Below the pieces are notes generated by a model. It was given only the letters and a program-made list of their open reading frames with translations, did no database searches and was not told where the DNA came from. 64,000 bases of DNA. Source: Crossiella cryophila. Lineage in GTDB: Bacteria > Actinomycetota > Actinomycetes > Mycobacteriales > Pseudonocardiaceae. The stretch lies in assembly GCF_014204915.1 (NCBI RefSeq), contig NZ_JACHMH010000001.1, positions 1,178,001 to 1,242,000 of the forward strand, given 5' to 3'. This document shows, in pieces, positions 50,713 to 63,719 of the stretch (its first letter is position 1; each line of letters opens with the position of its first letter). Made by a program: the position numbers and the translations under genes.

Positions 50713-52616
50713 CCGCCATCCCCAGGGTCACCTTCGTGCTGGTCAGCTACAACGGCAAGGACATGCTGACCAGCTGCCTGGCCACCCTCGCCGAGCACAC
50801 CCCAGGCCCGTACGAGGTCGTGGTGGTCGACAGCGCCTCCCCGGACGGCACCGGCGAATGGCTGGAAGCCAACCTCACCGGCGCGACCGTGCTGCGAATG
50901 CCGGAGAACCTGGGCTTCGGCGCGGGCTGCAACCTGGGCGTCCAGCACGCCCGCACCGAACTGATCTGCTTCCTCAACGCCGACGTCGAGGTCACCCCCG
51001 GCTGGTTCGAGCCGCTGCTCGCCCGCCTGGACGCCACCCCGGAGGCCGCCGCGGTCGGCTCGGTGCTGGTCTTCCCGGACGGCCGCCTGCAGGAGGCGGG
51101 CAGCGTCATCGGCGGCGACGGCTGGAGCCGCGGCTGGGGCGACGGCGACGCGGACCTCTCCCCGCTCTACCCACGCTCGGCCGACTACTCCTCGGCCGCC
51201 TGCCTGCTCATGCGGCGGCGTGCGTTCTGGGAGACCGGCGGGTTCTCCCCCGAGTTCCACATCGCCTACTTCGAGGACACCGACCTCCAGTTCCACCTGC
51301 GCTCGCTGGGCTGGCAGATCTGGGTCGAACCCGCCTCCCAGGTCCGGCACATCCGGCACGGCAGCAGCACCACCCCACGCGCGATCGAGCTGTCCAACAT
51401 AAACCACGAGGTCTTCGTCCGCCGCTGGCCGGAAGCCCTGGCCAAACGCCCGCCAGCGGTCGGCGTGCACGAACACCCGCACCGCCTGTGGTGGCTACGC
51501 GACCAGCAAGCCCCCTACCGGGTCCTGCTCACCGCCGACCAGGTCCCCGACCCCACCCAGGGCCAAGGCGCCCAACGAGCCTGGGCGGTCATCCAGTACT
51601 GGCGCCAGGCCAACCCGGAAGCCGCCATCACCGTCCTGGCCACCCACGGCGAGGCCACCGCACTGCGCGCCACCGGCGTCGAAGTGTCCATCGTGGACAA
51701 CCCCACCGCCTGGGGCCGCGACCGAGCCGGACTCTATGACGTCATCGTCGCCCTCGGCGCCCGCGGTTTCCCGCTGGCCGAAGCGGTCTCCCGCACCCAA
51801 CCGCAGGCAGTCCGGCTGCTCGATACCCAGACCTTCCTGCACCGCGAGGCCGAACGCCGCTTTTCCACACTGCCCGACGCCGCAGCCCGCCGCCGCTGCG
51901 CCACCGAGGCGGCTGCCTGGCGCGAGGCCGAACACAAGGCCCTGACCTGGGCCGAACTCGCCACCGTCGGCAGCCCGGCCGAACTTGACTGGGCCACCCG
52001 CTTCGCCCCTGCGGCCAACCTGCACGTGGCTCCGTACCCGGTGCGGATCACCCCGGCGCCGGCCGGCCCGGACCGCCGCGAGGGCCTGCTCTTCCACGGC
52101 GCCTTCGCCACCGCCCCCACCTCCAACGAGGTGGCCGCCCGAACCCTGATCGACGAGGTCCTGCCCCTGCTGGACGGCCCCCACCTGCGCGTGATCGGTG
52201 CACATGCCCCGGACACCCTGCGCGCACCCGGCGTCGACGTCATTGGCTGGGTCCCCGACCCCGCCCCCTACCTGCGCACGGCCCGAGTCCTGGTCAACCC
52301 GGCCCGCAGCGGCGCGGGCGTGCAGACCAAACTGCTGGACGCGATCGCGCACGGCCTGCCGTTCGTCACCACTTCCCTTGGATCCGAGGGCATCCCGCTC
52401 GGCGACCTGCGCGCGGACCTGGTCGCCGACACCCCGGCCGAGATCGCCGAACTGACCCAGCGCCTGCTCGACGACGACGCCAGGTGGACCCGGATCCAGG
52501 TCGCCCTGCTTGACCTGGCCGCCACCCACCTGTCCGAAGAGCACTTCCACACCGCGATGGCCGCCGTCCTCATCCACTGCGGCATCGCCCCGCCCACGGC
52601 GGCCTACGCGCGCTGA
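50709..52616 (+). CDS. Bifunctional glycosyltransferase (GT2 plus GT4)
   Basis: A 635-residue fusion. The N-terminal GT2 domain (about residues 1-250) has VTFVLVSYNGKDMLTSCL, the metal-binding region FLNADVEVTPGW, and the FHIAYFEDTDLQFHLRSLGW acceptor loop typical of rhamnosyl-type GT2. From about residue 275 a GT4-like domain follows, with the sugar-nucleotide site VNPARSGAGVQTKLLDAIAH and GLPFVTTSLGSEGIPLGD. It would add two sugars to a lipid- or protein-linked glycan. Cytoplasmic. It begins at a GTG overlapping the preceding gene. Confidence 0.9.
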   Translation: MTAIPRVTFVLVSYNGKDMLTSCLATLAEHTPGPYEVVVVDSASPDGTGEWLEANLTGATVLRMPENLGFGAGCNLGVQHARTELICFLNADVEVTPGWFEPLLARLDATPEAAAVGSVLVFPDGRLQEAGSVIGGDGWSRGWGDGDADLSPLYPRSADYSSAACLLMRRRAFWETGGFSPEFHIAYFEDTDLQFHLRSLGWQIWVEPASQVRHIRHGSSTTPRAIELSNINHEVFVRRWPEALAKRPPAVGVHEHPHRLWWLRDQQAPYRVLLTADQVPDPTQGQGAQRAWAVIQYWRQANPEAAITVLATHGEATALRATGVEVSIVDNPTAWGRDRAGLYDVIVALGARGFPLAEAVSRTQPQAVRLLDTQTFLHREAERRFSTLPDAAARRRCATEAAAWREAEHKALTWAELATVGSPAELDWATRFAPAANLHVAPYPVRITPAPAGPDRREGLLFHGAFATAPTSNEVAARTLIDEVLPLLDGPHLRVIGAHAPDTLRAPGVDVIGWVPDPAPYLRTARVLVNPARSGAGVQTKLLDAIAHGLPFVTTSLGSEGIPLGDLRADLVADTPAEIAELTQRLLDDDARWTRIQVALLDLAATHLSEEHFHTAMAAVLIHCGIAPPTAAYAR

Positions 52617-52638
52617 TCGACTCGAACGACAAGATCGT

Positions 52639-52649
52639 TACGTGACGTA
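52639..52649. promoter_or_regulatory. Palindrome upstream of the RHS gene
   Basis: TACGT-G-ACGTA, a perfect 11-bp inverted repeat in the 156-bp gap before the RHS gene, followed by AT-rich sequence (GATATACC at about 52659). It may be an operator; no regulator family can be assigned from so short a site. Confidence 0.3.
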
Positions 52650-52772
52650 GTCGGTCAGATATACCTCTCTGGTCGCTGGCGCGATGACTCGTCGCCGAGT
52701 CAAAATTCCGCCGTTTGTTTCGTCAGCCGCGTGCTGCCTGGGGGGCTCGCACTAGTTGTAGGGGGGAACGCG

Positions 52773-55700
52773 TTGACACGCGTGCCTTTACTTCGTCGTG
52801 CTCGCAGACAAGTAGTCCGAACGATCGCCGTGGTGGTCGCCGCCGCCATGACGGTGTCCATTACGCAGGCCGTCGCGGTCGCCGAGCCTGAGCAGCAGGC
52901 CACGGCGCCGCGTCGGGGCACTGCCGCCGACCTGCCACTGCCGGACAACAAGCCCGGTGAACTGCTCAAACCGGAAAATCCCAAGGGCGACTTCGGTCAG
53001 CCCGGCCGGGCCCCGGCCCGCAGCCCGAAACCGATCGACCCGCCACGGCCGGAGCGCACCGGCTTTGTCGAGGGCAAATCGGTGCTGGTCGAGCGGTTGC
53101 CCACCGGAAACGTCTACCGCAACCCGGATGGCACCAGGACCGCGAAGATGTTCCAGGACGTGGTCAACGTCAAGGACGACCGCGGCCAGCTGGTCGAGGT
53201 CCAGACCGACCTGGAACGCAAGAACGGCAAGCTGGAACCCAAGGCCACCCTGGCCGACGTCCAGCTCCCCGAGCAGGTAGGCGCGGGCGCCGACCTCCGG
53301 GTCACCGCCCAGGACGGCGCCACCGCCGCGCTGGAACCCGTTGACCTGGCCATCCGCCCCGCCACCGTGTCCGGCGGCACCGCCAAGTACGCCGGCGTCC
53401 AACCCGACGTGGACCTCCAGGTCCGCATCCTGCCCCGCGGCTTCAAACACGACGTGGTGCTGCACCGGGTCCCGCAGGCCACCGAATGGCGCTACCGCCT
53501 CAAACCGGAGGGCAACCTCACTCCGGTCGCCGAAGAGGGCGGCGCGATCGCCCTCAAGGACCCCGACGGAAAGGTCCGCCTGACCGTCCCGGCCCCCGTC
53601 GCCTGGGACTCCGCCATCAACCCGGCCTCCGGCGACCCCGCCTACGGCCCAGCCACCCAACGCCTGGAACGCGACTCCCAGGGCTGGCTGCTGGTGCTCT
53701 CGGTGGACCGCAAATGGTTGACCGATAAGGCCCGCGAGTTCCCGGTGACGGTCGACCCCGGCGTGACCACGCCCGCGGTCGCCGAGGACGCCTATGTCAG
53801 CGACCAGTTCCCGACCACCAACTACGACCAGAGCTGCGGCGATGAGCGTGGCTGTGTGAACAAGGTCGGGTTCTGGCCGGGCGCCGGTCTCAACGAGACC
53901 TACGTCAAGTACGACCTGGGCCCCGCCCGTGGCAAGCAGATCATCAGTTCCACCTGGCACGGGTACTGGGCCTGGACGAACAAGCCGCAGGCCACCCCGT
54001 TCTGGCTGCGCAGCGTGGACTGCGGCTGGAACGCCCGCAACATCACCTGGAACAACAAGGCCTGCGTCGGTGGTGCGGTCCAGCAGGCCGCCGCGCAGGG
54101 CGGCGCCTGGACCGACGTCGACATCAGCGGCTGGATGAAGGAGTACGCAGCGGGCCGGTGGAACTGGAATGGTTTCCGCCTGGACACCAACGGCGACCGG
54201 AATCCGGACCTGTGGAAGAAGCTGGCCGCGGCCGAGGCGCCAGCGCAGGCCAAGTCGCACCTGACCATCCACTACAACGACTGGCCGCAGGTCGCCGAGA
54301 TCACCGGCCCGTCGCCGGTGAACGGCCAGGAGTACCGGACCCGCGAGTTCCGCTTCGGCGTGCAGATCGGCGACCCGAACAACGACAAGCTGTACGGTCA
54401 GGTGCTGATCTCCGAGGACCCGAACGTGGTCCCGACCGCCTTCGACTCCGACACCATCGAACGTCCTGGCGGCGAGCGCAAGGCCGAGTTCGGCAAGACC
54501 TTCAAGCTGGACTGGAACAAGACCTACTACTGGCAGGTCGCCTTCCGGGACGACTGGTCGGAGTGGGTCTGGTCACCGGTGTGGAACTTCCGCACGGCCA
54601 ACCGCATCCCCGCGGTACCCGGCCAGGCCGCTCCCGGTGAGCGAGCGGTGGTCTCGATCAAGTCGCCGGAGCTGAAGGTGACTCCGGTCACCGATCCGGA
54701 CGGCGAAGGCGTGCAGTACCAGTTCGCCGTCGGCACCGGTGGTTCGGCCCGCGCGGGCATGGTCGCGGTTTCCGGCTGGCTCGACAGTCCACAGTGGACC
54801 ATTCCGCCGGGTGTCCTCAAGGACGGCGTCACCTACCACTGGACGGTGCGGGCCAGGGACTCGGTGTCCCAGCAGGAGACCAGGGATGCGCCGTCCCGGC
54901 CGATGAAGGTGGACATGCGACTCGGCGCCCAGGGCCCGATCGCCGGTGACACCCTCGGCCCGTTGACGGTGAGCCTGGCCACCGGCAACGTGATCACCAG
55001 CCTGAGCACCCCGGACCTGACCACCGTGGGCGGACCGATCTCGGTCAAGATGACCTACAACTCGCAGGCCTCCGACGACGCGGGCCTGGTCGGCTCGTAC
55101 TACACCGGGGACAGCGAGGAGGGCATCAAGGACACCGAGACGCCGGTTCTGGTGCGCACCGACCCCCAGGTCTCCTACAACTGGGGCGAGGGTTCTCCGT
55201 ACGAGCCGGTGATCGCCAAGGACGGGTTCCGGATCCGTTGGCAGGGCTTCGTGCGCGTGCCCACCACCGGGGACTACTCCTTCGGCGGCGTGCACGACGA
55301 CGGCCTGCGGGTCTGGGTGAACAACCAGCAGGTCTACAACGAGTGGAAGCAGTGGATGCAGCCGGGCGATGCACCCAAGCTGGGATCCGCCCTCCGGCTC
55401 GAGGCGGGCAAGCCGTACCCGATCAAGGTCGAGTACCGGGACTGGAACCACACCGGTCTGGTGCACCTGTGGGCCAAGGGCGCTGGGGACCCGGTGCCGG
55501 TTCCCGCGTCCTGGCTTACCCCGACCGCCTCGGCGTTGCCGCCGGGCTGGTCGCTGTCGGCGGACGTGGACGGCCAGGGCCAGAGCTACACCAAGGCCAC
55601 GCTGACAGAGTCCGGCGTGACCTTGACCGACACCGACGGCGGATCGCACTCCTACGAGCGCACCTCCGACGGCGGTTACCGCCCGCCCGCCGGTGAGTAC

Positions 55701-58700
55701 GGCGTGCTGTCCAGGGACAACGAGGGCAAGCTGACCCTGATCGACTCGGGCGGCACGGTCTACGTGTTCAACGCCTCGGGCGGCCTCGAGTCGGTGACCT
55801 CGCCCAGCGACATCCGCAAGCCGGCCGCGGCCCGGATGGAGTGGCGCTCGGTGGACCCGGGCAACCCGATCCCGCGGCTGAAGAAGATCATCGACCCGGT
55901 CTCCGGCCGGTTCGTCGAACTCTTCTACGGCGGTGAATCCGGTTGCGCCCCACCGGATGGCGCCGATCCGGTGCCACCGGGTTACCTGTGCACGGTCCGG
56001 CTGCCCGACGGCGCGGCCAGCCACCTCTACTACCGGGGCGGCAAGCTGACCCGGCTGAAGAACCCTGGCGATGAGCTGACCGACCTGAGCTACACCGACA
56101 CGCACCTGCTGACCGCGATGCGGACGCCGCAGGTCCTCGACTGGGTGCTGGCCGACATCGACCGGCGCAACACCCACGAGAGCACCTTCGTCGCGGAATA
56201 CCAGGAGGGCACGCGGAGCGCGAAGGCACTGCTCGGGCCCGAACCCAGCGGGTTCAAGCAGACCCCGCCCAAACGACCGCACCACCGGTTCGGCTTCGGC
56301 GCGGACTTCACCGAGGTCTTCATCGACGGCACCTCGCCAGCCACGGACAAGGCTCGCAAGGTCATCCGGGACAGCGGCGGCCGTACAGTGACCGATATCG
56401 ACGCGGCTGGCAAGCAGACCCGGCACGAGTGGGCCGAGGACGACAAGCAACTCTCCAGCACCGATGCCGCTGGCCGCAAGTCGACCTGGGTCTACGACGC
56501 CAAGGGCAACCCGATCGAGCAGTACGGCCCGGCCCCGGAGAAGTGCTTCGGCGCCGATCGCCGTCCACTCAGCCCGGCGCCAGCTGGCTGCGAGAAGGTG
56601 CCTGGCAAGCGCACCAGCTACGACGAGGGGTTCAAGGGACTCTCCAGCGCGTGGTGGAACAACGCCGCCATGTCCAGCGGGGCCAGTGCCTACTCGACCA
56701 CCGAGCCCAACGGTGACTGGACCACGAAGGCCCCGACCGAGGGGCTGACCGCGGCGGGCACCTACTCGGCCCGGATGTCGGGCGTGGTCCAGGTGGACAC
56801 CGCGGGCCGGTACACCTTCGGCACCCACGAGGACGATGCCGCGGACGGGCTGCGGGTCTATGTCGACGACGAACTGGTCGTGGACCGTACCTACTCGCCG
56901 TCGGTGGTCGAGTCCCGGCCGCTGGCGTACTGGCGGCTGGGCGATGGCAACGACGACCTGCTGGATGCCTCCGGCAACGGCCGCAACGGCCGGTACGAAG
57001 GCGACGTGCTCAAGCAGGAGACGGGCGCGCTGCCCAACGACATCAGCCGCAGCGTGCTCTTCCGCGGTGGCACCGGCCGGGCCCAGGTGCCCGACAGTGA
57101 TGCGCTGGACATCACCGGTCCACTGACCCTGGAGGCGTGGATCCGGCCGCTGAACAACGAACCCGGCGGTGGCTGGCACGACCTGATCAGCAAGTACGCC
57201 GCGGACAGCGGAACCCCGTACGAGCTGGTGGTCACCCCGGAGATGCAGGTCGAGTTCCGGCAGGGCGGCACTGGTTCGCTGCAGTCGCTGAAGTCCACCG
57301 GCGGCCTGCGCACCAACAGGTGGAACCACGTCGCGGTCACCAGGGACGCCTCGAACAAGGTGATCTTCTACCTCAACGGGTCCAAGTCCGGTGAGGGCAC
57401 CATCGCCAAGTCGGGCGAGCCCAACCCGCTCCCGCTCACGCTGGGCCGCCGCAATGTCGGCGGCACCGCGCAGAGCTGGCTGGACGAGGTCGCCGTGTAC
57501 GACCGGGTGCTGGCGGAGAAGGACATCGCCAAGCACGTGGGCGCGGCAGGCCGGGTCGACGAACCGGACCAGTCCGTCGAGCTGTCCGCTGGCCCGCACC
57601 GGATCCGGGTGGACTACCTGCAGCAGCAGCGTTCGGGCAACCAGTTCCGGGGCGACTCCAAGGTCAACCTGATGTGGCGGCGCGGCGACGCGGCGCTCAC
57701 CCCGGTGCCTGCGGACAAACTGACCCCGGACTACGGCCAGGACACCGCCACGGTGGAGGCGGAGTCCGACGGCGTACCGGATCGGCGCACCACCACCGAT
57801 CGGGCAGGCGGCGGGCTTGACCTGGCCTACGGCCTGGAGGGCACCGTCACCAAGCACACCAGCGACGGCGGGCTGACTTCCGGCACCGAGTACGAGAAGC
57901 CGGGCGCCGGATTCCTGCGCCGAGTCGCCAGGAGCATGCCCTCCGGCGCGAAGACCACCTACGGCTACTACGGCAACACCGAGACCAGGGACAACCCCTG
58001 CACCCCCGAGGCAGATCCGGCCCCGCAGGCCGGACTCGCGAAGGTGGTGACCTTCCCGCAGCCCGCCTCCGGGGCAGCTCGGACGGACGAGCAGGTCTAC
58101 GACGCCCGCGGCCGGGTGGTGGCCAGGGCCACGGGTGGCTCCTGGACGTGCACCAGATACGACGCCCGGGGCCGGGTCACCGAGGTCAAGTTCGCGGGCA
58201 ACGCCACCGCGGGCGAGCGGACCGTCCGGCACGACCACGCCGTGAACGGGGACCCGCTGGTCTCCTCGGTCTCCGACCTGCACGGCACCATCACCACCAC
58301 CGAGGACCTGGTGGGCCGGACCGTCGCCTACGTCGACGCACAGGGTGTGCGGACCGAGACCGACTACGACCGGGCGGGCAAGGTGGCCTCGGAGAAGGTG
58401 ATCCCACCGAACCCGGCCGACCCGCCGCAGATCACCACCTACGGCTACGACAACGCCGGTCGGGCCGTCACGGTTAAGCTTGGTGACGTCCAGCTGAGCG
58501 AGATCACCTACGACGCGGCAGGCGAACTCGGTTCGGTCAGCTACGCCAACGGCGCCAAGCTGGCCGCGATCGGCAAGGACGGGGCGGGCAGGCCGACCTC
58601 GCTCACCTGGCGGCTCGGCGACGGCCGTGAGGTGGTCAGCACGGTCAGCCGGACCAGGGCGGGCACGGTCGTCGACGAATCCCTCGGCGGCGCGGACGCC

Positions 58701-59984
58701 CGGCCAAACGGCCCGAACTACTCCTACGACGGAGCGGGCAGGCTGACCGAGGCATGGGTGGCTGGACACCAGTACACCTATGACTTCACCAGCACCGCGG
58801 CCGCTGGTTGCCCGACCGGCACCCAGTCCAACGCGGGCCGGAACACCAACCGGGTCCGGTTGCTCGACAAGACCGCGGCAGGCACGGCCGAGACCGGCTA
58901 CTGCTACGACGCGGCGGACCGCCTGCTGTCCACCACCGGCGCCAACGCGGTGTCCGGGATCAAGTACGACGTGGCGGGCAACACCACCGAGTACACCGCC
59001 GGCGGGGCGCCCACCTACCTGGGCTGGGACGCCGCAGGCCGCAACCTGACCGCCCGCACCACCGGGTCCGACCCGGCCGACGTGGCCTACCTGCGCGATG
59101 CCGAGAACCGGATCATCCGCCGGGACGCCACCAAGGGCGACCAGACCACGCTGGTGCTCTACGGCCACACCAGTGGCAACGACACCAGCGATGTGGCCAT
59201 CAGCCAGGACAAGCGCCTGGTGTCCAGGTCGATCGTGCTGCCGGGCGGGGTACTGCACACCGTGCCGGGCAGCGGCCAGGACAAGCCCGCGGCCTGGGAC
59301 CACCCCACGATCCGCGGCGACATCGCGGCCACCTCCGGCCCTGACGGCAAGCTGGTCGGCGAACTCCGCACCTACACGCCCTCCGGCGAGCCGGTGAAGC
59401 CCAACGGAGCGATCGACCCGGACCACGTGCCCGACAACCAGCCGGGCGCGATGGACTACGGCTGGCTCGGCCAGCACCAGCGACCGTATGAACACGCCGG
59501 CGCGCTGTCCCTGGTGCAGATGGGCGCTCGCCCGTACTCACCGCTGCTGGGCCGCTTCCTGGCGGTCGACCCGCTGGAGGGAGGAGCGGCCAACGACTAC
59601 GACTACGCGGCCGCCGACTCCATCAACAAGCAGGATCTCAACGGCCAGTTCATCGGTCCGCTGCTCGGACTCGCGGCTCGCTATGTCATCCGACCCGCGG
59701 CCAACCTGCTGGTGCGGCATGTCGTGAAGCCCGCGTTCAACTGGGCGAAGGACAAGGCGGTGCCGTGGGTCGGACGGCAGCTGAAGAGAGCATTCTCGCC
59801 TGTGCAGAGAACGTTGTCGGGTATTAGAAAGAAGCCGGGGAGGTTCGTCTACACCTGTTTCGTTTCCATCGTTCTCGCCGTCGTTCCTCTGTATGTCAGC
59901 GGCGCCAGGATCTGGCTGGGTGTGCTGACGGGGGTGCTCACCTGCCTCATCAAGGACGCCCCCCGAGACGCCTGGCCTAGATAG
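52773..59984 (+). CDS. Secreted RHS/YD-repeat protein with PA14 and LamG domains and a C-terminal toxin-like tip
   Basis: About 2,403 residues. Start chosen at the TTG at 52773, which has AGGGGGG 6 bases upstream (a GTG at 52731 is open but lacks one). A basic N-terminus and hydrophobic signal (VVRTIAVVVAAAMTVSITQA) are followed by a beta-rich exported region and a DNRLRE-like domain (about 53780-54270). Next come an Fn3-like segment, PA14 domain 1 (about 55075-55540), early YD repeats, PA14 domain 2 interrupted by a LamG-like domain (about 56630-57720), a long YD-repeat array (57760-59500) and the RHS core end (YSPLLGRFLAVDPLEGG). The last 110 residues form the variable tip with a hydrophobic segment. 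The YD shell typically encloses such a tip. Confidence 0.9.
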   Translation: MTRVPLLRRARRQVVRTIAVVVAAAMTVSITQAVAVAEPEQQATAPRRGTAADLPLPDNKPGELLKPENPKGDFGQPGRAPARSPKPIDPPRPERTGFVEGKSVLVERLPTGNVYRNPDGTRTAKMFQDVVNVKDDRGQLVEVQTDLERKNGKLEPKATLADVQLPEQVGAGADLRVTAQDGATAALEPVDLAIRPATVSGGTAKYAGVQPDVDLQVRILPRGFKHDVVLHRVPQATEWRYRLKPEGNLTPVAEEGGAIALKDPDGKVRLTVPAPVAWDSAINPASGDPAYGPATQRLERDSQGWLLVLSVDRKWLTDKAREFPVTVDPGVTTPAVAEDAYVSDQFPTTNYDQSCGDERGCVNKVGFWPGAGLNETYVKYDLGPARGKQIISSTWHGYWAWTNKPQATPFWLRSVDCGWNARNITWNNKACVGGAVQQAAAQGGAWTDVDISGWMKEYAAGRWNWNGFRLDTNGDRNPDLWKKLAAAEAPAQAKSHLTIHYNDWPQVAEITGPSPVNGQEYRTREFRFGVQIGDPNNDKLYGQVLISEDPNVVPTAFDSDTIERPGGERKAEFGKTFKLDWNKTYYWQVAFRDDWSEWVWSPVWNFRTANRIPAVPGQAAPGERAVVSIKSPELKVTPVTDPDGEGVQYQFAVGTGGSARAGMVAVSGWLDSPQWTIPPGVLKDGVTYHWTVRARDSVSQQETRDAPSRPMKVDMRLGAQGPIAGDTLGPLTVSLATGNVITSLSTPDLTTVGGPISVKMTYNSQASDDAGLVGSYYTGDSEEGIKDTETPVLVRTDPQVSYNWGEGSPYEPVIAKDGFRIRWQGFVRVPTTGDYSFGGVHDDGLRVWVNNQQVYNEWKQWMQPGDAPKLGSALRLEAGKPYPIKVEYRDWNHTGLVHLWAKGAGDPVPVPASWLTPTASALPPGWSLSADVDGQGQSYTKATLTESGVTLTDTDGGSHSYERTSDGGYRPPAGEYGVLSRDNEGKLTLIDSGGTVYVFNASGGLESVTSPSDIRKPAAARMEWRSVDPGNPIPRLKKIIDPVSGRFVELFYGGESGCAPPDGADPVPPGYLCTVRLPDGAASHLYYRGGKLTRLKNPGDELTDLSYTDTHLLTAMRTPQVLDWVLADIDRRNTHESTFVAEYQEGTRSAKALLGPEPSGFKQTPPKRPHHRFGFGADFTEVFIDGTSPATDKARKVIRDSGGRTVTDIDAAGKQTRHEWAEDDKQLSSTDAAGRKSTWVYDAKGNPIEQYGPAPEKCFGADRRPLSPAPAGCEKVPGKRTSYDEGFKGLSSAWWNNAAMSSGASAYSTTEPNGDWTTKAPTEGLTAAGTYSARMSGVVQVDTAGRYTFGTHEDDAADGLRVYVDDELVVDRTYSPSVVESRPLAYWRLGDGNDDLLDASGNGRNGRYEGDVLKQETGALPNDISRSVLFRGGTGRAQVPDSDALDITGPLTLEAWIRPLNNEPGGGWHDLISKYAADSGTPYELVVTPEMQVEFRQGGTGSLQSLKSTGGLRTNRWNHVAVTRDASNKVIFYLNGSKSGEGTIAKSGEPNPLPLTLGRRNVGGTAQSWLDEVAVYDRVLAEKDIAKHVGAAGRVDEPDQSVELSAGPHRIRVDYLQQQRSGNQFRGDSKVNLMWRRGDAALTPVPADKLTPDYGQDTATVEAESDGVPDRRTTTDRAGGGLDLAYGLEGTVTKHTSDGGLTSGTEYEKPGAGFLRRVARSMPSGAKTTYGYYGNTETRDNPCTPEADPAPQAGLAKVVTFPQPASGAARTDEQVYDARGRVVARATGGSWTCTRYDARGRVTEVKFAGNATAGERTVRHDHAVNGDPLVSSVSDLHGTITTTEDLVGRTVAYVDAQGVRTETDYDRAGKVASEKVIPPNPADPPQITTYGYDNAGRAVTVKLGDVQLSEITYDAAGELGSVSYANGAKLAAIGKDGAGRPTSLTWRLGDGREVVSTVSRTRAGTVVDESLGGADARPNGPNYSYDGAGRLTEAWVAGHQYTYDFTSTAAAGCPTGTQSNAGRNTNRVRLLDKTAAGTAETGYCYDAADRLLSTTGANAVSGIKYDVAGNTTEYTAGGAPTYLGWDAAGRNLTARTTGSDPADVAYLRDAENRIIRRDATKGDQTTLVLYGHTSGNDTSDVAISQDKRLVSRSIVLPGGVLHTVPGSGQDKPAAWDHPTIRGDIAATSGPDGKLVGELRTYTPSGEPVKPNGAIDPDHVPDNQPGAMDYGWLGQHQRPYEHAGALSLVQMGARPYSPLLGRFLAVDPLEGGAANDYDYAAADSINKQDLNGQFIGPLLGLAARYVIRPAANLLVRHVVKPAFNWAKDKAVPWVGRQLKRAFSPVQRTLSGIRKKPGRFVYTCFVSIVLAVVPLYVSGARIWLGVLTGVLTCLIKDAPRDAWPR

Positions 59985-59994
59985 GGAAGATCCA

Positions 59995-60225
59995 GTGGCT
60001 GTTGAGGAGGGCTTCGTCTCCTGGCTGGTGCGTGACAGGTGGGCCAGGAGAGTGTTCTACATCCCGGTGATTCCGGCGCTGGTCCTGGCGGTTGCCTATC
60101 TCTTGTTCGGCTGGCCGCCGGGATACTTCGCCGTAGCCTGGATCTTGATATCGATTTCGGATCTTGCGCTGAGGTACCTCGACTGGCGAAAGATCAAGCG
60201 AGGCGGACCGCCGCCCTGGCAATAG
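59995..60225 (+). CDS. Small two-helix membrane protein, candidate immunity protein
   Basis: A 76-residue protein. AGGGAAG lies 6 bases before the GTG at 59995, and the gene begins 10 bp after the RHS stop. Two membrane helices (FYIPVIPALVLAVAYLLFGW and FAVAWILISISDLALRY) are flanked by Arg/Lys-rich ends (VRDRWARRV, DWRKIKRGG). Codons such as ATA, TTG, CTT and ATT are frequent here and rare in neighbouring genes. No family recognised. Position after a polymorphic-toxin-type gene is where cognate immunity genes sit. Alternative: an unrelated small membrane protein. Confidence 0.7.
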   Translation: MAVEEGFVSWLVRDRWARRVFYIPVIPALVLAVAYLLFGWPPGYFAVAWILISISDLALRYLDWRKIKRGGPPPWQ

Positions 60226-60247
60226 AAACTGATCAGCAGTTCAAGAT

Positions 60248-60287
60248 GGTGGGGGCATGTCCCGGAACCCCGGGGCGTGCCCCCACC
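60248..60287. terminator. Bidirectional hairpin between convergent genes
   Basis: The arms at 60248-60265 (GGTGGGGGCATGTCCCGG) and 60270-60287 (CCGGGGCGTGCCCCCACC) pair over 18 positions with two G-U pairs around a 4-base loop. It lies between the RHS/immunity unit and the opposing glycan gene, so it likely ends transcription from both sides. Confidence 0.78.
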
Positions 60288-60302
60288 GCTGTTCGGAACT
60301 GG

Positions 60303-63300
60303 TCAGTCCAGCGGTGGCACGGTCCGTTCCGGCATCCGCCGCCGCGCCCGCCGCAACGCATGCCAGCGCAGCGCCGCGGTCAGGAAGTACCGCTCCGTCC
60401 CACCGGTCTCCGGCCGCTTCCCGTTCCGCGCGGCCAGCTCCACCAGCACCGACAACTGCCGCTCCACCCCGGCCAGCTTCACCAGCTCACCGCGATCGGC
60501 CGCACCCAGCTGATCCCCGTTGCGCGCCAGCAACACCGAGGCGAACTGGGCGATCCGCCGCAGCTCGTGCTCGACGACGTGCTCCAGCTCCTCGCGCCGC
60601 CGCGGGGTCAGCCGCCGGTCGATGCCCAGGCTCAGCTCGGCCAGTCCCACCGGTCCCGGCAGGCCGGAGGTCCACCACGGCAGCATCCACCCGGTGACGT
60701 TCTCCCCGTGCTGCCGGTAGGACTGCAACGGACGGTCCACAAAGGACAGTGCGCCGACCGACAACGCCGTCGCCGCGATCCACTGGTCGTGATACGCCGT
60801 CGGTGTGCCAGGCGGGAACGGCAACACCCGCTCGCGCACCAGGTCCGCCCGCACCAGCGAGGCCGCGCCGGTCACCGTGTTCAGCATCAGCAGCGCGTCC
60901 AGTTCGCTCCACTGGTTGCGCCGCTTGCCCCAGGAGGTCTTGGCGATCAGCTTGCCGTCGTCGTCGATCAGCCGCATATCGCAGTAGACGAGCTGCACCT
61001 TGGGGTCGGCCAGCCGCTCCAGCTGCACCGCGAGCTTGTCCGGATCCCACACATCGTCCTGGTCGGACAGCGCGATCGCGTCCGCGTCCAACGGCGCCAG
61101 CCGCAACGCGCGCTCGAAGTTGCGGTAGAAGCCCACGTTCCGTTCGTGCTCGACCACCACGAACCGCGGATCCCCGTCGGTCAGTTCGGCCAGCACACTC
61201 CGTGCCGCCGGATCCGTGCCGTCATCGGAGATCACGCACACCCAGTTGTCGTGGGTCTGCTTCCGGATCGAGTCCAGCTGCTCGGCCAGGAACCGCCGCT
61301 CCGGGTGGTAGGTCGCCAGGCAGATCGCCACCCGCGGACCCGACCCCGGCCACTCCACCCGCACCGGCCGGATGCCCACCTCGGCCCTGGTCCGCAGGCT
61401 CGGCAACGCCCGGTGCAACCGGGTGCCGTCGCTGAGGTCGACGATCAGTTCCAGCGGCAGGTCGTGCCTAGTCGGCCCGGCAGGCAACGGAATCCGTGCC
61501 CGGAACCCACTGCCCTCCGGCACGTGCCAGCCGGCCGCGCCCAGCTCCTGCCGCACCACCGGCCGGTGGTAGCCCAGGTTCGCCGGGACCATCCGCCCAT
61601 CGGCCTTGATCCACACCGCCCGCACCGGCAGGTCCGCGTGCACCGCCCAGCCGGCCAGATCCACCACCTGACCACGCCCGATGTGCACCGGTTCGCCCGG
61701 CACGTCCACCGCGAACCGCAGCCCGGCCTCCCGCGCCGCGCCCTCGCGCACCCGCAATCGCCTGGCCAGCAACGGGGTCAGCGCGGGCGCGTACCGGCTG
61801 GCCCGCCGCAACACGCTGTCCGGCTCCGCCCCGCCCCGGCCCAGCAGCAGATCCCGCATGCCCCTTGCCGCCCGCGCGGCCGGCCACACGTACCGGTGCC
61901 CGGCCCGCACCAGCGAGGACCCCTCCAGCGCGTCCAGCCGCGCCCGGGTCCTGGCCAGCCGGTCCCGCAGCTGCTGACTGGCGCTGGCCTGCCCGGCCGC
62001 GTCCGCCCGAGCCGCGTCCACCTCCGAGCGCACCTGCTCGAAATCCGCGGTCGCCTCGGCCAGCCCGGCGAACGCGCTGCCCACCCGGTTGTCCAGTTCG
62101 ACCAGCTCGTCCTGGGTGCGCGCGAGTTCCTGCCGCAGTGACTCCCGCTCGGCGTCCGCGGCCCGCAACGCCTCCTCGGCCGCCTGGTGCTCCTTGGTCA
62201 GCTCCGCCCGCAGCTCCTCGGCCTGCGCCTTCGCCTGGGTCAGCTCGGCCTGCCGGTGCGCGATCTGCTGACGCAGCGCCTCCACATCGGTCCACAGCGA
62301 GCGGGCGGTCTTCTCCGCCTGCTCCTTGGCCGCCAGCGCCCGGCCCACCTCGCCAAGCCCCGGCGGCAACTCCCACACCCGTGGTCTGCCCGGCAGCACC
62401 GCATCGGCTTCCAGCGTCGCCAGCACCCGATCCCGCGGCGCCCCCGACACCAGCTCCTGCAACGAGGCCTCGGCCGAGGTCAGCTCGACCCACCGCTGCC
62501 GCGCCGGACCACCCAGTCCGCACAGATCAGCCAGCCGGAACAACAACTTCTGCAGATTCGTCTCGGCGGGCCACGGATGCGGCGCGCCGGAATCCCGCAG
62601 CTCCCTGGCGAACTCGCGCAGCCCGCGCAACAACGCCAGTTCCGCGTCCACCCCCGACCCGGCCTCCCACTCCAGGTCGATCCGGCGCACCTCCCGGTCC
62701 GGCCCCAGCACCAGGTTCCCCGGGTGCACGTCCAGACAGTCCGGCGGCAGCACCGGCACGCCGACCCGGCCAGGCAGGAACGGATGCCGCAGGTCCTCGG
62801 CGGTCAGCGGTCGAGCCTGGGCCAGACAGGTCCGGCACCACAGGCCCAGCAGCCCACCGGCCCGGTCCAGATCACCGGCGGCGAGCGCGTCCAGCAACTC
62901 GGTGTCCAGACACCGACCCGGCAGCCACGGCTCGGCCGGAACCACCCGCTGCCGCAGCCAGCCCTCGGTGTTGTCGGTGCCCTCGATCGTCTCCAGCACC
63001 AGGTCCGCGCTCAACCGGCGGGCCCGCTGCCAGCGCGGCTGCCTGCTCGAGTTCACCAGCCAGGCCAGCCCCGGCCCGGTCACCCTGGCCACCGCCTCCG
63101 GCGTCCGCCCGGCCACCACCAGGAAGGCAGGCGCCACCGCCGCCGCGAAACCCTCGGCCAGCGCCAACTGGTGCAACCGCCGCCCCGGCGCCGCCGCCAG
63201 CTGCTCGTCCGCGGCGCCCAGCAACGGATCCCGCACCAGCTTGTCGACCAGCTCCAGCCGGTCCGCCCGCTCGAACACCGCGCCGTCCACCAGCACCCGC

Positions 63301-63719
63301 GGCCGCACGTGGTCCGGGTAGCACAGCAACCAGCGCTGCGCGGTCAGCCCGGCCCCCTCCAGCAGCCCGGTCAGCACCCGGCGACTCCAGGTCCGCGGCC
63401 CCGGCCTGCCCGGGTAGTCCGCCGCGCCCAGCCACATCCGCTCCCGCACCGGATCGGCCTTGCCCAGCAACTGCCCCAGCCCGAGCTGGTTGTGCACCGC
63501 CAGCACCAGCACGCCATCGGCCGCCAGCTGCCCGGTCACCTGGCCGAGCAGCCCGGCCGGATCCGCGGTGTGCTCCAGCGATCCATCCAGCAACGCCAGG
63601 TCGAACGGCCCGCCCTCGGTCAGCCCCTCCGGACCGACCTGCACCAGCCGCGCCTCCGCGGTGGTCCGGACCGGCGCGAGCAGCCCGCGCCACAGCATCT
63701 CCTGCTCAGGGGCAGCCAC
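60303..63719 (-). CDS. Giant multidomain envelope-glycan protein (methyltransferase-like, kinase-like, coiled coil, beta-sandwich, GT2)
   Basis: 1,138 residues from a GTG. Residues 1-165 resemble an SAM-methyltransferase core (FDLALLDGSLEHTADPAGLL, ADGVLVLAVHNQLGLGQLLG), though no clear GxGxG motif is present. About 330-350 carry a phosphotransferase-like loop (DVHPGNLVLG, then RRIDLEWE). About 460-600 are a long coiled coil. About 670-780 form a beta-sandwich-type module with the phrase DLAGWAVHADLPVRAVWI. About 790-1010 are a GT2 glycosyltransferase (ICLATYHPERRFLAEQLDSI, ALSDQDDVWDPDKL). Such fusions build cell-surface glycans in actinobacteria. The upstream gene ends 4 bp before it. Confidence 0.85.
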   Translation of the reverse strand: MAAPEQEMLWRGLLAPVRTTAEARLVQVGPEGLTEGGPFDLALLDGSLEHTADPAGLLGQVTGQLAADGVLVLAVHNQLGLGQLLGKADPVRERMWLGAADYPGRPGPRTWSRRVLTGLLEGAGLTAQRWLLCYPDHVRPRVLVDGAVFERADRLELVDKLVRDPLLGAADEQLAAAPGRRLHQLALAEGFAAAVAPAFLVVAGRTPEAVARVTGPGLAWLVNSSRQPRWQRARRLSADLVLETIEGTDNTEGWLRQRVVPAEPWLPGRCLDTELLDALAAGDLDRAGGLLGLWCRTCLAQARPLTAEDLRHPFLPGRVGVPVLPPDCLDVHPGNLVLGPDREVRRIDLEWEAGSGVDAELALLRGLREFARELRDSGAPHPWPAETNLQKLLFRLADLCGLGGPARQRWVELTSAEASLQELVSGAPRDRVLATLEADAVLPGRPRVWELPPGLGEVGRALAAKEQAEKTARSLWTDVEALRQQIAHRQAELTQAKAQAEELRAELTKEHQAAEEALRAADAERESLRQELARTQDELVELDNRVGSAFAGLAEATADFEQVRSEVDAARADAAGQASASQQLRDRLARTRARLDALEGSSLVRAGHRYVWPAARAARGMRDLLLGRGGAEPDSVLRRASRYAPALTPLLARRLRVREGAAREAGLRFAVDVPGEPVHIGRGQVVDLAGWAVHADLPVRAVWIKADGRMVPANLGYHRPVVRQELGAAGWHVPEGSGFRARIPLPAGPTRHDLPLELIVDLSDGTRLHRALPSLRTRAEVGIRPVRVEWPGSGPRVAICLATYHPERRFLAEQLDSIRKQTHDNWVCVISDDGTDPAARSVLAELTDGDPRFVVVEHERNVGFYRNFERALRLAPLDADAIALSDQDDVWDPDKLAVQLERLADPKVQLVYCDMRLIDDDGKLIAKTSWGKRRNQWSELDALLMLNTVTGAASLVRADLVRERVLPFPPGTPTAYHDQWIAATALSVGALSFVDRPLQSYRQHGENVTGWMLPWWTSGLPGPVGLAELSLGIDRRLTPRRREELEHVVEHELRRIAQFASVLLARNGDQLGAADRGELVKLAGVERQLSVLVELAARNGKRPETGGTERYFLTAALRWHALRRARRRMPERTVPPLD

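Follow-up and report, generated by a model that had tools for sequence, protein, structure and literature searches.

Near the 3′ end of a 64,000-nucleotide stretch of the Crossiella cryophila genome (contig NZ_JACHMH010000001.1, positions 1,178,001 to 1,242,000; hereafter the window), a gene encoding a 2417-residue RHS polymorphic-toxin protein is followed by a gene encoding a 76-residue protein with two hydrophobic segments. Only ten bases separate the TAG stop codon of the first from the GTG start codon of the second. An initial annotation of the window, made from its letters alone, had proposed that the C-terminal tip of the RHS protein and the small gene form an exchangeable tip/immunity cassette. 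This proposal is now well supported, since the pair recurs on different RHS shells, is swapped for other pairs at one site in another genus, and coincides with a step in codon bias. A membrane mechanism seems likely from the properties of the two sequences. We regard it as probable that an exported RHS protein carries a short membrane-acting tip, that the small membrane protein provides immunity, and that tip and small gene move as one cassette. The features of the locus, in window coordinates, are as follows.

52617 to 60302, no strand assigned: inserted segment of about 7.7 kb; contains the RHS and small genes and is flanked on either side by a glycosyltransferase gene (blastn of the flanks against four congeners, G185 to G188, and gene maps)
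52731 to 59984, plus strand: RHS polymorphic-toxin protein, 2417 amino acids; GTG start at 52731, TAG stop at 59982 to 59984
59547 to 59651, plus strand: final portion of the conserved RHS shell (LGRFLAVDP...DLNGQ), as far as DNA similarity to the paralogous shells extends (59651)
59652 to 59810, plus strand: basic, in part amphipathic linker, with relatives in RHS tips that have different C-termini
59811 to 59981, plus strand: predicted toxin domain, 57 amino acids, PGR-x4-C-x28-C-...-DAWP (hidden Markov model, HMM, with the window left out; profile A3 over 386 genomes; hydropathy)
59844 to 59900 and 59904 to 59960, plus strand: hydrophobic segments of the predicted toxin domain (hydropathy)
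59856 to 59858 and 59943 to 59945, plus strand: cysteine codons of the predicted toxin domain, one cysteine in each hydrophobic segment
59984 to 59989, plus strand: GGGAAG, possible ribosome-binding site of the small gene (sequence only)
59995 to 60225, plus strand: predicted immunity gene, 76 amino acids, GTG start (HMM with the window left out; hydropathy; homologues adjoining the same toxin domain)

The RHS gene, its tip and the small gene

Between a hydrophobic N-terminal segment and the tip, the RHS protein has Pfam and NCBIfam matches to a DNRLRE/CBM96-like region, a PA14 domain, a LamG-like domain, RHS/YD repeats and the RHS core end. The N-terminal segment was read from the sequence itself, and it suggests that the protein is probably exported. 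The RHS/YD repeats (PF05593, E 4.6e-11) precede the tip, and the whole protein matches the RHS-associated core TIGR03696 (E 6.2e-9, 36.3 bits versus a cut-off of 32.5), of which the last 145 residues taken alone yield only a partial match (21.6 bits versus the same cut-off). When the entire protein was scanned with Pfam at E up to 1, no PAAR domain was detected, but a degenerate PAAR-like fold could escape such a scan. The same genome holds a second RHS gene (locus L096, C1:6961000-6980500), whose shell is 53% identical over 2342 residues and whose tip is different, so that a variable tip beyond a conserved shell boundary is found here as well as at the exchange site described below. A counterpart of this second gene exists in the congener G186 (L097), and the tips of the two species are related but diverged. 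Both end in two close cysteines, and the open reading frames (ORFs) listed just 3′ of the L096 gene looked spurious.

The tip had initially been estimated at about 110 residues, which agrees with a count from 59652, the first position past the shell similarity, but not with a count from LGRFLAVDPLEGG, which begins at 59547 and is followed by 132 residues of the RHS protein. When the 145-residue end was searched against 390 genomes of the family, matches were found in 84, nearly all of which fell on query residues 1 to about 90, the part made up of the RHS core end and the linker. Because relatives of the linker (about 59652 to 59810) occur in tips with different ends and different downstream genes, the linker is not the toxin itself. 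By sequence comparison, the predicted family-defining domain is thus the last approximately 57 residues (59811 to 59981), and part of what had been called the tip is a linker common to unrelated tips. The 104-residue tip as a query against genome contigs found no match, and neither did protein searches with the small protein and the tip against plasmids or with the 145-residue end against phages.

The net charge of the 104-residue tip is +15. The amphipathic basic stretches reported by the initial annotation could be verified in part: RYVIRPAANLLVRHVVKPAF, the stretch it had named, is basic, but its amphipathic moment is no better than chance (1038 of 5000 shuffles reach it), whereas VPWVGRQLKRAFSPVQRTLSGIRK, the stretch next after it, is amphipathic beyond chance (24 of 5000 shuffles). 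The hydrophobic segment that had been noticed in the tip is real, with a Kyte-Doolittle value of 2.14 over 19 residues, and it is followed by a weaker second segment (1.25).

Neither Pfam nor NCBIfam yields a domain above its cut-off in the 145-residue end, in accordance with the earlier observation that the tip shows no nuclease, deaminase or ADP-ribosylase motif. This bears on the alternative that the tip is a cytoplasmic nuclease or other enzyme whose import is blocked by the small membrane protein. Such a block has a precedent in the suggestion by Zhang et al. 2012 that the two-helix immunity proteins Imm-CdiI and Imm17 might prevent toxin uptake at the membrane (PMC3482391). However, only about 57 residues are common to the family, the window's tip has two hydrophobic segments in them, and no catalytic motif or family match was found, so we consider an imported enzyme quite improbable.

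The small gene was confirmed at 59995 to 60225. Hydrophobic segments lie at residues 23-39 and 43-59 of its product (hydropathy 2.36 and 1.74 over 17 residues), although only the first passes a stricter setting (19 residues, 1.6). Two such segments (17 residues, 1.4 or more) are present in all six small proteins of this family that were measured. No Pfam or NCBIfam domain exceeds its cut-off in the 76-residue protein. Codon usage sets the tip and the small gene apart from the rest of the RHS gene. Upstream of the final 104 codons of the RHS ORF, the G+C content of third codon positions (GC3) is 0.907; it falls to 0.743 over the final 70 codons and is 0.776 for the small gene. Similarly, the summed frequency of AGA, AGG, ATA, TTG, ATT and TTA per 100 codons is 11.6 over the final 69 codons of the tip and 11.8 for the small gene, but 1.1 for the rest of the RHS ORF. 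The less G/C-biased codon choice that the initial annotation had pointed out coincides with exactly these two pieces.

The tip domain and the small gene in related genomes

A search of the 390 family genomes with the single small protein (E up to 0.01) matched 17 genomes, and all 16 matches outside the window were inspected. Eight count as family members, namely the window and those in G201, G246, G250, G385, G057, G066 and G068; the other nine lie inside larger unrelated proteins and were rejected. An HMM of five members, with the window left out, ranked the window's small gene first of 942 ORFs (E 5.5e-16). A seven-row profile searched in 386 family genomes gave 16 matches in 15 genomes at E up to 1e-3, eight strong and eight weak. 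This and the other profile searches scored at most 14 or 16 candidates per genome, so member counts given here are lower bounds. Four of the strong matches lie directly after the tip domain described below, one is in G385, and three are orphans (G057, G066 and G068). Six of the eight weak matches were inspected, four of those in wider context, and the ones in G230, G251 and G235 and one in G013 look like distant orphans. When a profile of the small protein was searched in a sample of 394 genomes of the class, two were matched, and only the window's match was credited, the second lying inside a 612-residue frame. Wide occurrence of the small gene without RHS neighbours, which the initial annotation had regarded as a refutation, was not seen: it lacks such neighbours in a minority of genomes, with any match at E up to 1e-3 seen in 15 of 386.

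The strong neighbours led to tips in G246, G250 and G201 that share a pattern with the window's tip: PGR (with variants), four residues, C, 28-33 residues, C, and finally [HKR]D[AS]W or a related sequence (for example DAQ). A profile built from these four ends, the window's included, gave 18 matches in the 386 family genomes at E up to 0.01. Eight are convincing (E up to 5.1e-5) and belong to the window, G201, G246, G250, G062, G065, G071 and G060. The other ten (E 7.8e-4 to 0.0093) were taken as chance matches; the six that were inspected have no toxin tail, and the remaining four include one in the congener G185. Exactly two cysteines are present in the domain of all eight members.

The tip domain occurs on three kinds of shell. 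In Goodfellowiella coeruleoviolacea DSM 43935 (G201), G062 and G071, it ends proteins of 3.2-3.3 thousand residues with RHS repeats and a PT-HINT (pretoxin HINT) domain; an earlier idea that the G201 shell lacks RHS repeats was dropped, as both are present. In G060 and G065, the end resembles RHS-HINT-type proteins by eye.

Membership of the window's tip was assessed with an HMM of the seven other members. It gave 21.8 bits to the window's last 110 residues, compared with 5.9 bits for the best of 28 non-family tips. None of 3000 shuffles of the last 60 residues reached the real score of 23.8 bits (2902 were reported, the best with 9.8). On a six-frame translation of the window, the RHS ORF, matched at its C-terminus, ranked first among 942 ORFs (E 3.2e-4, versus 0.12 for the next). 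The position of the window's tip beside a member of the same immunity family is an important part of the case for membership.

A small-gene homologue directly adjoins the tip domain in four of the eight members (the window, G201, G246 and G250), whereas in the other four it is not adjacent. The distance from tip to small gene is 10 bp in the window and 8 bp in G201, and the two ORFs overlap in G246. In G250, 26 bp separate the tip from the first start codon of a 93-amino-acid ORF, and 80 bp from the start that aligns with the family. We did not count G385 as a pair: its small-gene homologue is strong, but no intact toxin ORF lies upstream, where something like the motif can be seen by eye only in a different frame.

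Another of the weak matches, in G213 (L131, L141), is a copy of the small gene with a disrupted frame; it is located behind an RHS gene with another tip and a small membrane gene of its own, and looks like a relic of an earlier cassette. In principle, the window could likewise hold a decayed locus, a remnant tip with a leftover, functionless gene, and the disrupted copy in G213 is what would favour such a view. In the window, however, both ORFs are intact, the residues of the motif are conserved and the small gene has a sequence like a ribosome-binding site in front of it, all of which makes decay highly improbable.

Exchange and insertion

At one site in another genus (g25), an RHS gene is found in all seven genomes mapped there, beside genes for an aldehyde dehydrogenase, a LysR-type regulator and a mycothiol-transferase/DinB protein (domains of these neighbours were tested in G246 only, and the LysR gene was not called in two of the maps). 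In G246 and G250, the RHS gene at this site carries a tip of the window's family and is followed by the small membrane-protein gene. In G228, G233, G243 and G240, the tip end is different, and the next gene encodes a protein of 250-271 residues. HEAT_2 matches one of these proteins weakly (E 7.7e-5, 23.3 bits, below the cut-off of 27.7), and the others are called HEAT-like by resemblance. The seventh genome, G239, has a further tip with a 263-residue gene after it, and its RHS gene appears to be split over several ORFs. Across the six genomes with an intact RHS gene, the shells are 81-96% identical. The last approximately 60 residues, on the other hand, are only 13-22% identical between the small-membrane-gene class and the HEAT-like class, compared with 35% within the former and 30-82% within the latter.

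The same shell in related genomes thus carries different pairs of tip and downstream gene, as expected of a swapped cassette, and the tip and small gene are not conserved with the shell in all relatives. The downstream gene changes with the tip at this site. Other RHS loci of the genus (in G238, G244 and G248, and a second locus in G233) are at other sites, have other tips and were set aside. By eye, a HEAT-like gene or part of one is also seen upstream of the RHS gene in G246, G250, G233 and G240.

These results bear on a further alternative, in which the hydrophobic tail only serves to anchor the RHS protein in the membrane of the cell that makes it, and the small gene has no relation to it beyond its position. 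A C-terminal hydrophobic segment could indeed serve as an anchor, and four relatives carry the tail without the small gene. However, tail and small gene are found together on more than one kind of shell, and at the g25 site a different tip and gene take the place of both, which leaves little probability for a mere anchor.

In the window itself, the whole locus is an insertion. When aligned by blastn with the orthologous sites of the four congeners G185 to G188, the window shows similarity up to 52609-52614 and again from 60303-60305 onwards. The gene next to the insertion at 60303-63719, which has a glycosyltransferase family 2 match, has an orthologue in all four congeners (82-97% identity). 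The two flanking glycosyltransferase genes are adjacent in G185 and G186, where they overlap by a few bases, and lie about 1 kb apart in G187 and G188, with one 113-amino-acid gene between them. Neither the RHS gene nor the small gene is at the orthologous site in any of the four, and the small protein has no match anywhere in their genomes. The interrupted similarity and the RHS-free sites thus indicate that RHS gene, tip and small gene were gained or lost as one 7.7-kb unit, and gain is favoured because the unit is absent from all four congeners. The 113-amino-acid gene of G187 and G188 (L119, L120) is MerR-like by eye, and the site between the glycosyltransferase genes is a possible insertion spot.

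Proposed mode of action and known systems

From these features, we infer a possible course of action. The RHS protein would be exported, and its short C-terminal toxin would be presented or released to neighbouring, probably related, bacteria. The basic linker could bring the tip to the target membrane, where the last approximately 57 residues would insert as a hairpin of two helices, with a disulphide probably linking the two conserved cysteines, and would permeabilise or depolarise the cytoplasmic membrane. In the membrane of the producer, the 76-residue two-helix protein would block insertion or assembly of the hairpin. The tip domain and the small gene would move between shells as one cassette. 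The initial annotation had likewise suggested a membrane-targeting tip with a membrane immunity protein. The hydrophobic segments, the paired cysteines and the membrane-type partner are consistent with this suggestion. The models of the 104-residue tip and of the small protein are all helical, with breaks at the places expected from hydropathy, and that of the tip has four helices, but both are of low confidence (mean predicted local distance difference test, pLDDT, of 55.2 and 65.2).

Apart from these low values, several points weigh against the reading of a membrane-acting toxin with its dedicated immunity protein. The main evidence against strict pairing is that G060, G062, G065 and G071 have the tip domain without an adjoining small membrane gene. 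The initial annotation had regarded absence of the small gene beside identical tips as a refutation; these four tips are homologous to that of the window, not identical. Profile searches of these genomes revealed no clear small-protein homologue, only weak candidates in G065 and G071, beside a gene that is pyruvate-carboxylase-like by eye. Conversely, G057, G066 and G068, which belong to the same genus, have a strong small-gene homologue but no toxin in the genome by profile. The tests with the window left out are not fully independent either: four of the seven tips came from the profile that included the window, and a search with the window's own protein had originally led to the five small proteins (E 3.3e-13 to 5.7e-4 in single genomes). 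An HMM of the G246, G250 and G201 tips alone gave the window's tip only E 0.01 among 36 tips, below an unrelated one (L020, E 0.0077), and did not list it in the window translation; this weak score makes the window's tip the most divergent member of the family. Finally, the segment between the cysteines is partly Gly/Ala-rich in the other members, with a mean hydropathy of 0.44-1.02 as opposed to 1.61 in the window. Since the other members are only moderately hydrophobic, the case for membrane insertion is less plain for the family as a whole than for the window's tip.

This last point could be accommodated by the same cassette logic with a tip that does not form a pore, but binds a membrane or cell-wall target (a receptor, lipid II or a transporter) that the small protein shields. 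The domain is small, and its conserved polar PGR before the first cysteine and [HKR]D[AS]W after the second could form a binding surface. However, the window's tip has two hydrophobic segments, its partner is itself of membrane type, and no known binding or enzymatic domain was found. We therefore view a target-binding tip as unlikely, and a membrane-acting tip as the better account.

In the four members without an adjoining small gene, the gene directly after the toxin gene encodes a probably secreted protein (G062, G065, G071 and G060; L061-L064, L091, L092 and L142). In G201, the small gene sits between the toxin gene and a gene that is similar by eye to that for the probably secreted protein.

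The initial annotation had taken a membrane-targeting tip with a membrane immunity protein to be a less-described type. Such systems have already been described (Tse5-Tsi5, PMC9637101; Imm-CdiI and Imm17, PMC3482391), and these precedents place the present pair as a new, unnamed family of a known kind of bacterial weapon. Tse5, an RHS effector of Pseudomonas aeruginosa, forms pores in the cytoplasmic membrane, and Tsi5 has two predicted transmembrane regions (PMC9637101). The window's system is similar in having an RHS protein with a C-terminal tip, here predicted to act on membranes, and an immunity protein with two hydrophobic segments, a resemblance in architecture only. Unlike the window's protein, in which no PAAR was found, Tse5 is delivered by type VI secretion and has a PAAR-like N-terminus, described as a degenerate PAAR-like fold (PMC9637101). 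A search of chains in the PDB with tip profile A4, for which the presence of Tse5 among the chains was unchecked, yielded a single match at chance level, to an OmpA-family protein (E 0.52), and none to an Rhs toxin.

The ionophore toxins of contact-dependent inhibition (CDI) systems (CdiA-CT EC93 group) are depolarising polymorphic tips with an entry part and a C-terminal membrane domain; their immunity proteins are highly variable, and hydrophobic for EC93 (PMC11630599). Their membrane domain has five helices and is carried by the proteobacterial filamentous CdiA, in contrast to the approximately 57 residues, two hydrophobic segments and paired cysteines on an actinobacterial RHS protein here; the low-confidence model of the whole 104-residue tip has four helices. 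In Staphylococcus aureus, the type VII effector EsxX with ExiAB and ExiCD provides a Gram-positive case of a membrane-depolarising tip, whose membrane immunity genes also occur as orphans (PMC12744356), as do those of the present family in G057, G066 and G068. EsxX differs in its LXG/type VII delivery, its glycine zipper and its two immunity pairs (PMC12744356).

Zhang et al. 2012 name one class of pore-forming toxins, Tox-WTIP; Imm-CdiI and Imm17 are the two immunity families that they list as having two transmembrane helices (PMC3482391). Two membrane-spanning helices in an RHS-repeat polymorphic toxin, here predicted, are shared with Tox-WTIP, and two transmembrane helices in the immunity protein with Imm17 and Imm-CdiI (PMC3482391). 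By inspection, neither of the Tox-WTIP motifs RxxR and Wx[ST]IP is present in the 104-residue tip, and of the Imm17 features, two transmembrane helices, WxW and an R between them, WxW is absent from the small protein, which does have the two hydrophobic segments; neither protein has a Pfam match above cut-off. The motifs and profiles tested do not place the pair in the Tse5-Tsi5, CDI ionophore, Tox-WTIP, Imm-CdiI or Imm17 families, as judged from sequence. Among the openly licensed papers listed in literature searches, no title or abstract opening concerns this family of tip and small protein.

To our knowledge, the RHS warheads of Gram-positive actinomycetes are little characterised in comparison with those of proteobacteria. 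If the membrane-acting reading is correct, the pair would consist of a membrane toxin of minimal size (about 57 residues), probably with a disulphide bond, and an antidote of 76 residues, a system whose size suits direct structural and bilayer work. At the g25 site, where the same shell carries either a membrane-guarded or a HEAT-guarded tip, tip exchange is directly testable.

Paired cysteines are not confined to this family. We compared 36 RHS tips (loci L006, L007, L010-L038, L057 and L061-L064), many of them related and thus not independent cases, and five only 59-65 residues long. In all 36, the C-terminal 70 residues contain an even number of cysteines (0, 2 or 4), 14 having none, and these even counts suggest disulphides formed after export. 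The two-cysteine pattern is present in 16 of the 36: eight of the present family, seven with HEAT-like neighbours and one with another small membrane protein. The seven tips (L015-L018, L020, L025 and L027, in G009, G228, G233, G110, G086, G243 and G240) have the pattern C-x27-28-C, end 7-8 residues later, and are followed by HEAT-like proteins of 250-272 residues. They may represent a parallel class of small disulphide tips; homology between them and the window's family was not demonstrable by hhalign (probability 5%). Tentatively, one could imagine that actinobacterial RHS proteins draw on a broad class of interchangeable warheads, to which the window's tip would belong: very small hairpins of about 40-60 residues that resemble bacteriocins and are closed by a disulphide (C-x26-33-C near the end). 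At the same exchange point, the class would be paired with either of two unrelated guards, a two-helix membrane protein or a HEAT-like protein in which a scan found no transmembrane segment. We rate this generalisation as possible, though doubtful.

Two further observations concern tips and small proteins outside the family. In G251 (L139:7834-12319), about 2.9 kb upstream of a distant small-gene homologue, an ORF starts like an RHS core end by eye and contains a GNAT acetyltransferase domain; it has no Pfam RHS match, and is possibly a fragment of an RHS tip with an enzymatic toxin. At L010, L011, L012, L030 and L035, other RHS tips are followed by small proteins of 66-77 residues with one or two hydrophobic segments, which are not among the matches of the window-type profile and perhaps represent further membrane-type immunity families.

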